A DNA stretch of 64,000 nt, taken from positions 1-64,000 of the forward strand of contig NZ_JOCF01000027.1 in the NCBI RefSeq assembly GCF_000720635.1, given 5' to 3'. The DNA is from Streptomyces sp. NRRL WC-3742 (GTDB lineage Bacteria; Actinomycetota; Actinomycetes; Streptomycetales; Streptomycetaceae). The notes under the pieces are model-generated. The model was not told where the DNA came from. It worked only from the letters and a program-made list of their open reading frames with translations, and made no database searches. Below are positions 44,001-48,773 of the stretch, in pieces. The position numbers and the translations under genes are program-made. Position 1 is the first letter of the stretch, and each line of letters opens with the position of its first letter.

Positions 44001-44378
44001 GGTCTCTCCTCCGGGCGGCGCGGTGGGGGCGGTACGGGCGACGGTGCGGACGGACCGTGATGACCCGCTCGCCGACAGTAGGGCCGGAGGGCGTCGGAAA
44101 AGCCGAATGTCACTCTAAAGTGGGCGATATTCGAACGCCGTCTGCCGCAATGCGCCGACCGGTGGACGCCGTGGGGGTCGTGTATCAGATCTGTAACGGT
44201 CCGGCGAGCCGATCCCGGGCCGAGCCGGACCGCGTCCGCGCCCGGCCCCGGCCCCGACGGCGCAGGTCGGCGGGTGGGCGCGCGGGGGCGGCGCACCCGG
44301 CCGGGCGCGCGACGGCGGGCGGCCGCGGCACCCGATTCCGAGCTGACTCGCCCGCCCGCCGAAAGGTACGCTCCGGCC
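44001..44378. other. 378-bp divergent promoter region
   Basis: No gene. An AT-richer stretch at 44095-44200 holds possible promoters of the minus-strand GH26 gene. A plus-strand promoter is CTGACT (44343-44348) and TACGCT (44367-44372) with an 18-bp spacer, ending 6 nt before GTG 44379, which implies a leaderless mRNA for the beta-propeller-like gene. Confidence 0.55.
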
Positions 44379-45320
44379 GTGTCCCGGAAGCCTCTGCGTG
44401 TACTGACCCCCCGCTCGGTCCTGCCTGCCCTGGCGGTGATGCTGGTCCTTGCGGCCGGTGCGGCGGCACACGCCAACAAGCCGGTGCCGTTCGGCGACCG
44501 GGTGGCCGGGCCGGGCAACGCGGACGCCACGCCCGTCAACTCCCAGTCGCTCAGCGCCGCAGACCTCGACCTGCGGGTGGTCGGCGGCGGCCTGGAGGCG
44601 TTCCACCGCCAGAGCGGCGCCTCCGCGTGGACGTACAGCCGCGAGGGCGCCGAGGCGCTCCACCTGGCGATGGCCGGGGAGAACGCGATCGTGGTCTGGG
44701 ACGACGGCCTCGTCACCTCGGTGCGCCCGGGCGACCACGAGGTGCGCTGGCACCGCGCCGTCCCGGGCCTGGTGGACTGGCTGCGCGGCTCCGACGAGCC
44801 GGGCGCCGACAAGCGCACCCCGGAGCAGCGCAAGCAGCTGGCCAAGGAGCGGGCCGCCGGCGCGCTGCACACCGTCCAGCGGGACGGCTCGCCCTGGCTG
44901 GCCGTTGTGACCCCGAGCCTGACCATGGGCCTGCGCGACGCGGACGGCGACCTGCGCTACAACGACAAGCCCCCGAGCGGCTGCGCCTTCGACCCGCTGC
45001 GCACCGTCCACACCGACTACGCGGTGCTGATCCCGCGCACCTGCACCAACGGCTCCGGCCAGGCCGTCTCCGGCGCCGTCACCGGCTACCGGCTGGACAG
45101 CAGCGGCTGGGCGACGGGCACCGGGCCGAGCCCGGTCGTCAAGGTGCTGGACGCGCGCCGGGTGAAGGTCTCGGACGGGCCGATCCTGCCGCCGAAGGTC
45201 ATCGACACCAAGACGGCCGCCCCCGAGACGCCCTGCGGCAACCCGGCGGCCCCGTTCGCGGCCGTCCGCCCGCTGAACTGTGTCGACCCCTCCGCCACCC
45301 CGGGCGCACTACCGCAGTAG
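44379..45320 (+). CDS. Secreted PQQ/BamB-like beta-propeller-type protein
   Basis: 313-aa exported protein. Signal peptide at about 1-30 (PRSVLPALAVMLVLAAGAAAHA). Repeats with the pattern of PQQ-type propeller blades (GGGLEAFHRQSGASAWTYSREG; WDDGLVTSVRPGDHEVRWHR) are visible, but the length allows only a partial propeller. Two Cys pairs in the C-terminal half suggest disulfides. No lipobox, so it is secreted or membrane-held rather than a lipoprotein. GTG 44379 lies 6 nt after TACGCT, consistent with leaderless initiation. Function unknown. Confidence 0.72.
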   Translation: MSRKPLRVLTPRSVLPALAVMLVLAAGAAAHANKPVPFGDRVAGPGNADATPVNSQSLSAADLDLRVVGGGLEAFHRQSGASAWTYSREGAEALHLAMAGENAIVVWDDGLVTSVRPGDHEVRWHRAVPGLVDWLRGSDEPGADKRTPEQRKQLAKERAAGALHTVQRDGSPWLAVVTPSLTMGLRDADGDLRYNDKPPSGCAFDPLRTVHTDYAVLIPRTCTNGSGQAVSGAVTGYRLDSSGWATGTGPSPVVKVLDARRVKVSDGPILPPKVIDTKTAAPETPCGNPAAPFAAVRPLNCVDPSATPGALPQ

Positions 45321-45383
45321 TGGCACTACGTCAGTAGTCCCACGGTGGAGCACTACGGAAGTAGTGCCACTACCGGCGTAGTC
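45307..45383. promoter_or_regulatory. Four iterated CACTAC-N4-GTAGTG palindromes
   Basis: Copies at 45307-45322, 45324-45339, 45351-45366 and 45368-45383; the first and third are perfect 6-bp inverted repeats and the other two miss one end base. The first overlaps the stop codon of the upstream gene. Between pairs the sequences GTAGTGGCACTAC (45317-45329) and GTAGTGCCACTAC (45361-45373) are also dyads. The array ends about 60 bp before the promoter of the ABC-F leader. It looks like an operator array for a dimeric regulator I cannot name. Confidence 0.75.
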
Positions 45384-45441
45384 ACCGCCCGGGCCGGGCG
45401 TACCCCGGGGAGGTACTTCCCGGGCGTTTCGCGCGGCCCGG

Positions 45442-45447
45442 TAGACT
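45442..45447 (+). promoter_or_regulatory. -10 element of the ABC-F leader transcript
   Basis: TAGACT, 7 nt before the ATG of the upstream ORF, so the transcript probably starts at or beside that ATG. Confidence 0.6.
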
Positions 45448-45454
45448 TGCCGTC

Positions 45455-45478
45455 ATGGCTATCTTCTCCGGGCAATAG
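45455..45478 (+). CDS. Seven-codon leader peptide (upstream ORF) of the ABC-F gene
   Basis: ATG GCT ATC TTC TCC GGG CAA TAG encodes MAIFSGQ. The ATG is placed for leaderless translation from TAGACT. It ends 87 nt before the ABC-F start. The DNA between can fold: CGGCGCT/AGCGCCG (45486-45492 with 45501-45507), or alternatively GCGGGCG from the stop-codon region (45478-45484) with CGCCCGC (45534-45540). Leaders of this kind control antibiotic-resistance ABC-F genes by drug-stalled ribosomes (for example the short leaders of lsa, vga and msr genes). Translation here is inferred. Confidence 0.55.
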   Translation: MAIFSGQ

Positions 45479-45565
45479 CGGGCGGCGGCGCTCGATCCGC
45501 AGCGCCGAACCGTCGTCGAAGCCCCCTTCCGCTCGCCCGCCACGTCCCAGGAGCAGTTCCCAGCC

Positions 45566-47164
<1,599 letters not shown>

Positions 47165-47490
47165 CGGGACGTGGACATCCGTCCACCGATAGGACCAGAA
47201 AAACTAGTCCATACGGCGTGTCCGGGAATGAAGTAGCTCCCGATTCCGTTTAAGAACTTCCCGTCGGCCCGCCACTCGATCGTGGTCGGGCCGACGCTGC
47301 TGATCAGCCCTTTCGCGGCGGACGGCGGATGCCGACTGGGGGCGTGCACTCTGAGTGAGCGCCCCGACGCGCTCGGATCACCACCGCAGGACTGCGCATT
47401 CCCGACATCGGACTTGTCGAATGGGTGGCCAGGAGACGGTGGATGGGTGATCATGGGAATCTGACCGAGCAACGCTATGAGGAGGCACGG
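47165..47490. other. 326-bp leader region of the Gbn-like gene with hairpin and GATC sites
   Basis: No gene. A hairpin GTCGGCCCG-CCAC/GTGG-CGGGCCGAC spans 47263-47295, probably the ABC-F terminator. Four GATC tetramers occur at 47278, 47302, 47376 and 47449. The AT-richer segment 47195-47260 may hold a promoter. Confidence 0.5.
47263..47295 (+). terminator. Hairpin downstream of the ABC-F gene
   Basis: GTCGGCCCG (47263-47271) pairs with CGGGCCGAC (47287-47295), extended by CCAC/GTGG, loop TCGATC. One unpaired T. About 100 nt after the ABC-F stop. Confidence 0.65.
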
Positions 47491-47724
47491 GTGGCCGAGA
47501 CTCTGAAAAAGGGCAGCCGGGTGACCGGTGCCGCGCGTGAGAAGCTCGCGGCCGATCTCAAGAAGAAGTACGACGCCGGGGCGAGCATTCGCGCCCTCGC
47601 GGACGAGACCGGCCGTTCCTACGGCTTCGTGCACCGGATGCTCAGCGAGTCCGGAGTGGTGCTCCGGGGCCGCGGCGGTGCCACGCGAGGCAAGAGCAAG
47701 GCGACTGCCGGGGCCGGTTCCTGA
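47491..47724 (+). CDS. gbn: Small HTH protein, Gbn-like GATC-binding nucleoid protein
   Basis: 77-aa basic protein with one helix-turn-helix (about residues 32-52: SIRALADETGRSYGFVHRML) and a Lys/Arg/Gly-rich tail. Size, sequence character and the neighbouring ABC-F and enoyl-CoA hydratase genes match S. coelicolor SCO1839 (Gbn), a nucleoid-associated protein recognising GATC, as I recall it. GTG 47491 is set by GAGGAGG 5-6 nt upstream; the longer frame from 47425 ignores this site. GATC sites flank the gene on both sides, which fits autoregulation. The orthology is from memory and should be aligned. Confidence 0.72.
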   Translation: MAETLKKGSRVTGAAREKLAADLKKKYDAGASIRALADETGRSYGFVHRMLSESGVVLRGRGGATRGKSKATAGAGS

Positions 47725-47966: not shown

Positions 47967-48773
47967 ATGACCGCCCCCGCCATCGACCCGCAGGCCCCGA
48001 GCTGGGAGCGCGACGGCGTCCGCCTGGAGATCGAGGGCGAACTCGCCGTCGTCACCCTCTGTCAGCCCACGCGCCGCAACGCCCAGTCGCCCGCCCTCTG
48101 GCGTGCCCTCGTCGACGCCGGCCGTGACCTCCCCGGCAGCGTCCGGGTGGTGCTGCTGCGCGCCGAGGGCCTCTCCTTCTCCGCCGGCCTCGACCGCGCG
48201 ATGTTCACCCCCGAGGGCATCCCCGGCGAGCCCACCTTCCTCCAGCTCGCCGCCGCCGAGGACCGCGAACTCGACGACACCATCGCCTCCTACCAGGAGG
48301 CGTTCACCTGGTGGCACCGGGCCGACCTGATCTCCGTCGCCGCCGTCCAGGGCCACGCCGTGGGCGCCGGCTTCCAGCTCGCCCTGGGCTGCGACCTGCG
48401 CGTCGTCGCCGAGGACGTGCAGTTCGCCATGAAGGAGACCTCGCTCGGGCTCGTCCCCGACCTCGCCGGTACCAAGCCGCTCACCGACCTCGTCGGCTAC
48501 GCCCGGGCGCTGGAGATCTGCGCCACCGGCCGCTGGGTCGGCGCCGAGGAGGCCACCACCATCGGCCTGGCCAACCTGGCCGTCCCCGGCACCGAACTGG
48601 ACGCCGCCGCCCGCGACCTCGCCGCCGCCCTGCTGGCCGCCCCGCGTGGAGCCGTCATCGAGACCAAGGCGCTGCTCCAGGGCGCCTCCCGGCGCACCCT
48701 CGACGAGCAGCGCTCCGCCGAACGGGTGGCGCAGGCCCGTCGGCTGCGGGAGCTCGCCGGCATCGGCGACTGA
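47967..48773 (+). CDS. Enoyl-CoA hydratase/isomerase family protein
   Basis: 268-aa crotonase-fold enzyme. Oxyanion-hole strands are visible as GLSFSAGLDRAMF and VQGHAVGAGFQLALGCDLRV; LGLVPDLAGTKPL follows. The second catalytic Glu typical of hydratases is not obvious at the expected place, where the helix reads KETSLGLVPDLAGT, so isomerase or another crotonase reaction is possible. ATG 47967 has CGGAGG 8 nt upstream. Stand-alone gene bounded by a strong terminator. GATC sites crowd its promoter region. Confidence 0.87.
   Translation: MTAPAIDPQAPSWERDGVRLEIEGELAVVTLCQPTRRNAQSPALWRALVDAGRDLPGSVRVVLLRAEGLSFSAGLDRAMFTPEGIPGEPTFLQLAAAEDRELDDTIASYQEAFTWWHRADLISVAAVQGHAVGAGFQLALGCDLRVVAEDVQFAMKETSLGLVPDLAGTKPLTDLVGYARALEICATGRWVGAEEATTIGLANLAVPGTELDAAARDLAAALLAAPRGAVIETKALLQGASRRTLDEQRSAERVAQARRLRELAGIGD

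Follow-up and report, generated by a model that had tools for sequence, protein, structure and literature searches.

The window, a stretch of 64,000 nucleotides of Streptomyces sp. NRRL WC-3742 that was analysed at its full length, carries a gene for an ABC-F ATPase that is preceded by a very short upstream open reading frame (uORF). The leader and the genes that follow it comprise the following features:

45442..45447, + strand: -10-like element TAGACT (from the sequence; kept among Streptomycetaceae leaders)
45455..45478, + strand: uORF MAIFSGQ* (ATGGCTATCTTCTCCGGGCAATAG), probably leaderless, the A of its ATG being the putative +1
45566..47164, + strand: ABC-F ATPase of 532 aa (NCBIfam NF000355, 394 bits versus a cut-off of 380)
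47425..47724, + strand: HTH_58 protein, downstream, 48% identical across 54 aa to the product of the ORF that follows the M. vaccae relative
47967..48773, + strand: enoyl-CoA hydratase (context)

The ABC-F protein shares 67% identity with a relative from M. vaccae (L102), and its best sequence match in the PDB is PoxtA. The gene of the M. vaccae relative is followed by an ORF for an HTH protein and by two further ORFs, which we take to encode a TetR-like and an aconitase-like protein, presumably in the order of Rv1473-Rv1475c of M. tuberculosis. By way of this relative and of the neighbouring genes, the ABC-F protein is assigned by sequence to the resistance type represented by OcrA (Rv1473) and MAB_2736c (PMC9159947, PMC13041422). 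OcrA is described as counteracting linezolid and chloramphenicol in mycobacteria (PMC9159947, PMC13041422), and PoxtA as relieving linezolid stalls with a penultimate alanine (PMC8987054).

The uORF (ATG GCT ATC TTC TCC GGG CAA TAG) encodes seven residues. Its ATG is separated from TAGACT by a 7-nt spacer, and 87 nt lie between the uORF and the ATG of the ABC-F gene at 45566, exactly as had been described in an earlier note on this DNA. We infer that the uORF is probably leaderless, the mRNA starting at the A of its ATG; for WblC-activated promoters of S. coelicolor, transcription start sites are reported mostly 7-8 bp past the -10 element (PMC7157823). On both strands of the 64-kb window, the loose motif TANNNT-N5-8-[AG]TG followed by 4..15 residues occurs four times, and its strict form (TAGACT, TAGAAT or TACACT with a spacer of 6-7 nt) is found at a single site, the ABC-F leader. 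A scan for the sigma-70 consensus gave no match at the locus, and the five matches of an Rfam scan of 44500-46500 are all implausible and far below the gathering score. No prior account of this leader was found in the open-licence literature, which was searched for six uORF peptide strings as well.

Streptomyces-like leaders carry a conserved GAAAA-N4-TTGC-N4-CCC element before TAGACT (profile of 59 leaders; in L200, for example, within 26 nt), and a GAAAW-N3-6-TKGM match is present in 27/59 of these leaders and in 2/21 of those from Kitasatospora. The element resembles the box of the WblC/WhiB7 promoter, which is given as GAAAWY, 3 bp, TKGMNN, 16-19 bp and TANNNT (PMC7157823). Control by WblC was rejected, because the GAAAA-N4-TTGC box lies only 8 bp from the -10 element and not 16-19 bp. 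Boxes of this type are also seen in leaders of Amycolatopsis and Prauserella. Further upstream, four perfect tandem ACTAC-N4-GTAGT palindromes at 45308-45382 (0.11 expected in the window) overlap the end of the ORF at 44274-45320. This array was rejected as an operator of the ABC-F gene, as none of the loci fetched from other genomes contains it, whereas the same genome (G000) has similar arrays between convergent ORFs on contigs C5 and C112. The array is probably a repeat that this strain carries at gene ends.

Of 121 Streptomycetaceae genomes, all but one (120) have an ABC-F orthologue, with 82-100% identity. A uORF, defined as an ORF of 6-15 residues with TANNNT 6-8 nt before its ATG, is present in 103 of the 119 assessable leaders (102/118 plus L242; in G093 the gene lies at the start of a contig, leaving no leader to count), compared with 0.9% of shuffled regions. 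The short ORF is thus kept upstream of ABC-F orthologues, the point on which the earlier note had suggested comparing them. All of the main set of uORFs start with ATG (102/102), 98 end with TAG and 83 have exactly seven residues; TAGACT is present in 92/102 leaders and the spacer after TANNNT measures 6-7 nt in 99/102. MAILLAH, MAIFSGQ, MAVFLLD and MAVLSGH are the most frequent peptides. The 16 leaders lacking a uORF are those of all 13 gene-bearing genomes of genus g16 together with L144, in which the ATG is retained and the frame is longer, L154 and L225. Inspection by eye revealed that TAGACT or TAGAAT is still present in 13/13 of the g16 leaders. Three of these (L173, L183 and L186), in which the uORF ATG is gone and the -10 element retained, have in common a frame that begins with TTG, TTGTTGCCTCCTGCTGCATAG, and, immediately 3' of the -10 element, an inverted repeat GGAGGC/GCCTCC.

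The ABC-F gene is present in 145 of 148 genomes sampled at the class level. Outside the Streptomycetaceae, a comparable uORF was found in 16 of 64 named loci (L047-L110), including two that may be incidental (L077, 231 nt from the gene, and L079, overlapping it). From the class sample, leaders of the families f17, f18, f19 and f6 and of 14 loci of further families were examined, family names beyond the named loci being our assignment; L252-L263, from genomes already covered by earlier loci, were left out. Counts among these amount to 7/12 in f17, 9/12 in f18 (two of them distant, at 207 and 299 nt), 9/12 in f19 (the start of L303 could not be located), 0/7 in f6 (7 examined of 11) and 9/14 in the further families. 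Given these mixed counts, the presence of the uORF outside the Streptomycetaceae is patchy. The peptides there are different and unrelated, for instance M-x-T/A-PD, MMPVAD, VLRCEG and VDIQLE.

Some of the layouts bear on the possibility that the uORF is coupled to the ABC-F gene constitutively and senses nothing, either loading ribosomes by termination-reinitiation or surviving as the remnant of an ABC-F start that was itself leaderless. In a second, shorter leader type of Kitasatospora (MAECHTHV and kin), the uORF either stops 14 nt short of the ABC-F gene (five loci) or overlaps its start (three loci); these eight loci include both members of one of three duplicate pairs (L032/L135, the others being L238/L241 and L065/L287). 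In six further loci (L048, L068, L074, L075, L076 and L154), TANNNT lies 6-10 nt before the start of the ABC-F gene itself, suggesting from sequence that ABC-F may be leaderless there and a possible ancestor of the uORF. Constitutive coupling fits both layouts. However, the gap between the ORFs exceeds 50 nt in most leaders and coupling would not predict the group-specific complementarity described below, and we consider it quite unlikely. Transcription attenuation, by a terminator and antiterminator or by Rho as in lmrC, tiaA and msrD, is the usual mode described for known ABC-F leaders (PMC8546547, PMC12421871, PMC10314930). In the present case, however, a terminator scan of the window gave no intrinsic-terminator-like site within 45200-45700, and only 56-66 nt separate the ORFs in many Streptomyces leaders; this mode is very improbable here.

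RNA folding of the leader points to base pairing between the uORF and the translation start region of the ABC-F gene, including its Shine-Dalgarno (SD) sequence:

45455..45460, + strand: AUGGCU of the uORF; predicted partner (RNA folding) AGCCAU, where the ABC-F gene starts
45466..45472, + strand: CUCCGGG, uORF codons 4-6, predicted anti-SD arm (RNA folding)
45478..45485, + strand: left arm of an inner stem, its first base being the G of the uORF's UAG stop; predicted partner 45533-45540
45533..45540, + strand: right arm of the inner stem; predicted partner 45478-45485
45546..45553, + strand: CCCAGGAG, the ABC-F SD with flanking CCC, complementary to the uORF (sequence, RNA folding)
45562..45567, + strand: AGCCAT, running into the start codon of the ABC-F gene; predicted partner of the uORF start (RNA folding)

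In the predicted fold, AGCCAU, which extends into the start codon, is bound by AUGGCU, and CCC-A-GGAG by CUCC-GGG. The earlier note had described two competing stems. Two stems are indeed predicted, one of them from the stop codon, but they are nested and do not compete: the outer one is the long-range pairing of the uORF, as one arm, with the SD and start codon, and the inner one begins at the stop codon. The probability that the SD is paired is 0.99 in the free leader, 0.41 when nt 1-18 of the uORF are masked and 0.78 when nt 4-36 are masked. The fold is not unusually stable (z = -0.70; 46/200 shuffles fold at least equally well), and the case is built on comparison, not on this single fold.

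Complementarity between the uORF and the SD region of the ABC-F gene is found in Kitasatospora, in Streptosporangiaceae-type leaders, in f19 and in a paralogue of the gene (see below), in a version that differs per group. In Kitasatospora it also takes in the ABC-F start codon, and 98.4% of the cells of the AUGGCU:AGCCAU pairing are paired across 21 leaders. The MAILLAH group has the anti-SD CUCC two bases earlier, with Leu-Leu codons in place of Phe-Ser. Streptosporangiaceae-type leaders present 8-10 nt of complementarity, including 1-2 G-U pairs, in 8/9 cases (6/7 distinct ones; for example CACUCCCG:CGGGAGUG), with the anti-SD ACUCCCGA opposite UCGGGAGU. In f19, 6-9 nt are complementary in 9/9 leaders, CCGUGGC facing GCCACGG at the 5' edge of the SD, and in one leader this is extended to CUCCGUGGC facing GCCACGGAG. 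Micromonospora, Pseudonocardiaceae and one Streptomyces-like group (StrepD) show little or no pairing, and in most leaders of the group with aspartate-ending uORFs the SD is hardly paired to the uORF. When potential partners within the transcript are ranked, the SD is the best or a near-best partner of the uORF in Kitasatospora, Streptosporangiaceae-type leaders and f19, a middling one in the histidine-ending Streptomyces group and an unremarkable one elsewhere, including the paralogue.

Permutation of uORFs against SD regions over 15 groups gave -14.3 kcal/mol for the actual combinations versus -12.0 ± 0.5 kcal/mol for the permuted ones (0/20,000). Because these groups were drawn by hand, partly by peptide pattern, and 24 leaders remained ungrouped, the permutation was repeated with the latter as singletons (39 groups), yielding -13.5 kcal/mol for the own SD versus -11.8 ± 0.4 kcal/mol for permuted combinations (1/20,000; 4/20,000 without the start codons). 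Leaders with at least 25 nt between the ORFs entered these tests. What recurs among these sequences is the layout and the predicted base pairing, with peptide and SD context changing together.

Pairing probabilities and the effect of masking were calculated for leaders with sufficient room between the ORFs. Over 95 orthologue leaders, the mean probability of uORF-SD pairing is 0.50, versus 0.21 with shuffled uORF cores; it is above 0.5 in 49/95 leaders and at least 0.96 in 15/20 Kitasatospora-group leaders, and only 30/95 surpass all 20 of their own shuffles. In the 21 leaders from Kitasatospora, SD pairing drops from 0.94 to 0.68 when the start of the uORF is masked, versus 0.91 with control masks, whereas masking of the uORF in all 176 leaders lowers it from 0.84 to 0.73, hardly better than the 0.77 of control masks. 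With this mixed outcome, the masking model was rejected as a general proof of a switch.

Covarying stems, which the earlier note had proposed looking for, are found in part: compensatory changes occur in the paralogue, but covariation in Kitasatospora is not clearly above its controls. The Kitasatospora helix is nearly invariant and covariation is therefore uninformative there; RNAalifold places the CUCC arm of this group shifted by two bases. The paralogous ABC-F gene (~60% identity) is present in 20/121 genomes and has its own, MSTPRIS-like uORF in 20/20. The genome of the window itself carries this paralogue with the leaderless-type uORF MSTPRIS (contig C16, L238/L241). In an alignment of 16/20 paralogue leaders, the other four being absent from the covariation and permutation tests, 8/24 pairs are changed on both sides; the uORF:SD helix is 95% paired, with 3/9 of its pairs changed on both sides. 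Four of five covariation measures lie beyond every one of 500 shuffles, in which the relatedness of the leaders is lost, and the changes also go beyond those of slid partners; RNAalifold recovers this uORF:SD helix unprompted. The pairing probability of uORF and SD in the paralogue is 0.72 versus 0.56 for shuffled sequences, 0/9 leaders beating all of their own 20 shuffles, and masking of the uORF leaves the SD paired (0.78 to 0.83).

At the paired third codon positions of the Kitasatospora uORF, T6, C12 and G18 are invariant in 21/21 leaders and C15 in 20/21; variation in codon 3, most of which is unpaired, and at the third base of codon 7, likewise unpaired, alters the amino acid. In the same Kitasatospora ABC-F genes 24% of four-fold sites are invariant, and two paired four-fold sites would be invariant by chance in ~6% of cases; the third-position invariance is therefore only suggestive. 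Among 49 distinct seven-residue uORFs, Ala2 is present in 46, with GCA, GCC, GCT and GCG all in use, while residues 3, 6 and 7 are of 11, six and four kinds, respectively. As Ala2 is kept in Streptomyces despite this synonymous freedom, some peptide constraint is possible, and Ala2 and the predominant UAG stop (98/102) may reflect tuning at the level of the peptide or of termination in this genus.

Both features are also in line with a drug-specific stalling peptide, in which nascent MA-[VI]-... would arrest with phenicols or oxazolidinones, or at UAG, and thereby open the SD. The drugs counteracted by Rv1473/OcrA and the penultimate-alanine stalls relieved by PoxtA (PMC9159947, PMC13041422, PMC8987054) agree with such a peptide, as does MsrDL (MYLIFM), which is reported to arrest at its own stop codon with macrolides (PMC10314930). 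The variability of residues 3, 6 and 7 argues against it, however, as do the uORFs of Micromonospora (VLRCEG, VLLCEG) and Amycolatopsis (VDIQLE), which lack Ala, Ser and Thr. Moreover, alanine is common at second codons in general. We regard a stalling peptide as unlikely, and the earlier note's idea of sensing through a stalling leader peptide finds no support, the peptides being wholly different between families while the layout and, for several groups, the anti-SD pairing recur. Its choice of sensor is probably wrong, pairing taking the place of the peptide. In kind, its proposal of a short leader-ORF attenuator before an ABC-F gene was right: the conserved, probably leaderless uORF is most likely a cis-regulator.

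The reading that we favour, at slightly better than even chances, is that the leader acts as a translational attenuator of the OcrA/Rv1473-type ABC-F gene in which a leaderless uORF forms the left, anti-SD arm. It builds on the conservation of the layout, the group-specific complementarity and the compensatory changes in the paralogue; the leaderless start, the direction of regulation and the inducing signal are presumed, as follows. In the free RNA, the uORF (AUGGCU, CUCCGGG) would be folded over the SD and start codon of the ABC-F gene. A ribosome initiating at the 5'-terminal AUG would cover the uORF arm and free the SD, a 70S ribosome at the first codon presumably already covering CUCC. 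Slow ribosomes on the uORF, whether drug-bound or otherwise inhibited, would prolong the opening and yield more ABC-F protein, and ribosome rescue by the latter would close the loop. More tentatively, and less likely than not, the uORF could be a sensor of ribosome state and not a drug-specific peptide. As its AUG would form the 5' terminus of the RNA and, within Kitasatospora, would be locked into the helix that holds the ABC-F start, such a switch would read how well 70S ribosomes engage leaderless mRNA, and any treatment that shifts initiation to 70S or slows the early codons would induce ABC-F. The sensor would have been retuned in several families and in the paralogue, with the pairing kept and the peptide not.

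In regulators of the cat-86 and cmlA type, a stem hides the SD until a ribosome occupying a short leader ORF opens it. The proposed attenuator would share this principle and differ in that the uORF is itself an arm, the start is probably leaderless, the target is an ABC-F gene and several actinomycete families are involved. The msrD leader, with its hexapeptide MsrDL, likewise places a short ORF before an ABC-F gene, but is described as RBS-driven and as relying on an intrinsic terminator together with a specific peptide that stalls with macrolides (PMC10314930). Streptomyces lmrC and tiaA/are5sc also have a uORF before an ABC-F gene; these leaders are reported to be terminator-based and their ABC-F proteins to belong to the ARE5 subfamily, the uORFs of tiaA/are5sc are RBS-driven, and the peptides, MLV and MVGDDDISG, are unrelated to the one described here (PMC8546547, PMC12421871). 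Short leaderless ORFs upstream of genes, with a proposed role in cis-regulation, have been described in mycobacteria, where by contrast cysteine-rich ones are stressed (PMC4633059). The main text of that paper does not mention Rv1473, and a uORF of this kind is absent upstream of the M. vaccae relative. Of the OcrA papers, PMC13041422 contains neither 'uORF' nor 'leader', and the single 'uORF' in PMC9159947 concerns whiB7.

The mycobacterial counterpart is reported to have a share in intrinsic tolerance to linezolid and chloramphenicol (PMC9159947, PMC13041422). If true, a leaderless, SD-masking uORF would provide antibiotic producers with a compact means to tune ABC-F, and would make leaderless initiation a regulatory input.
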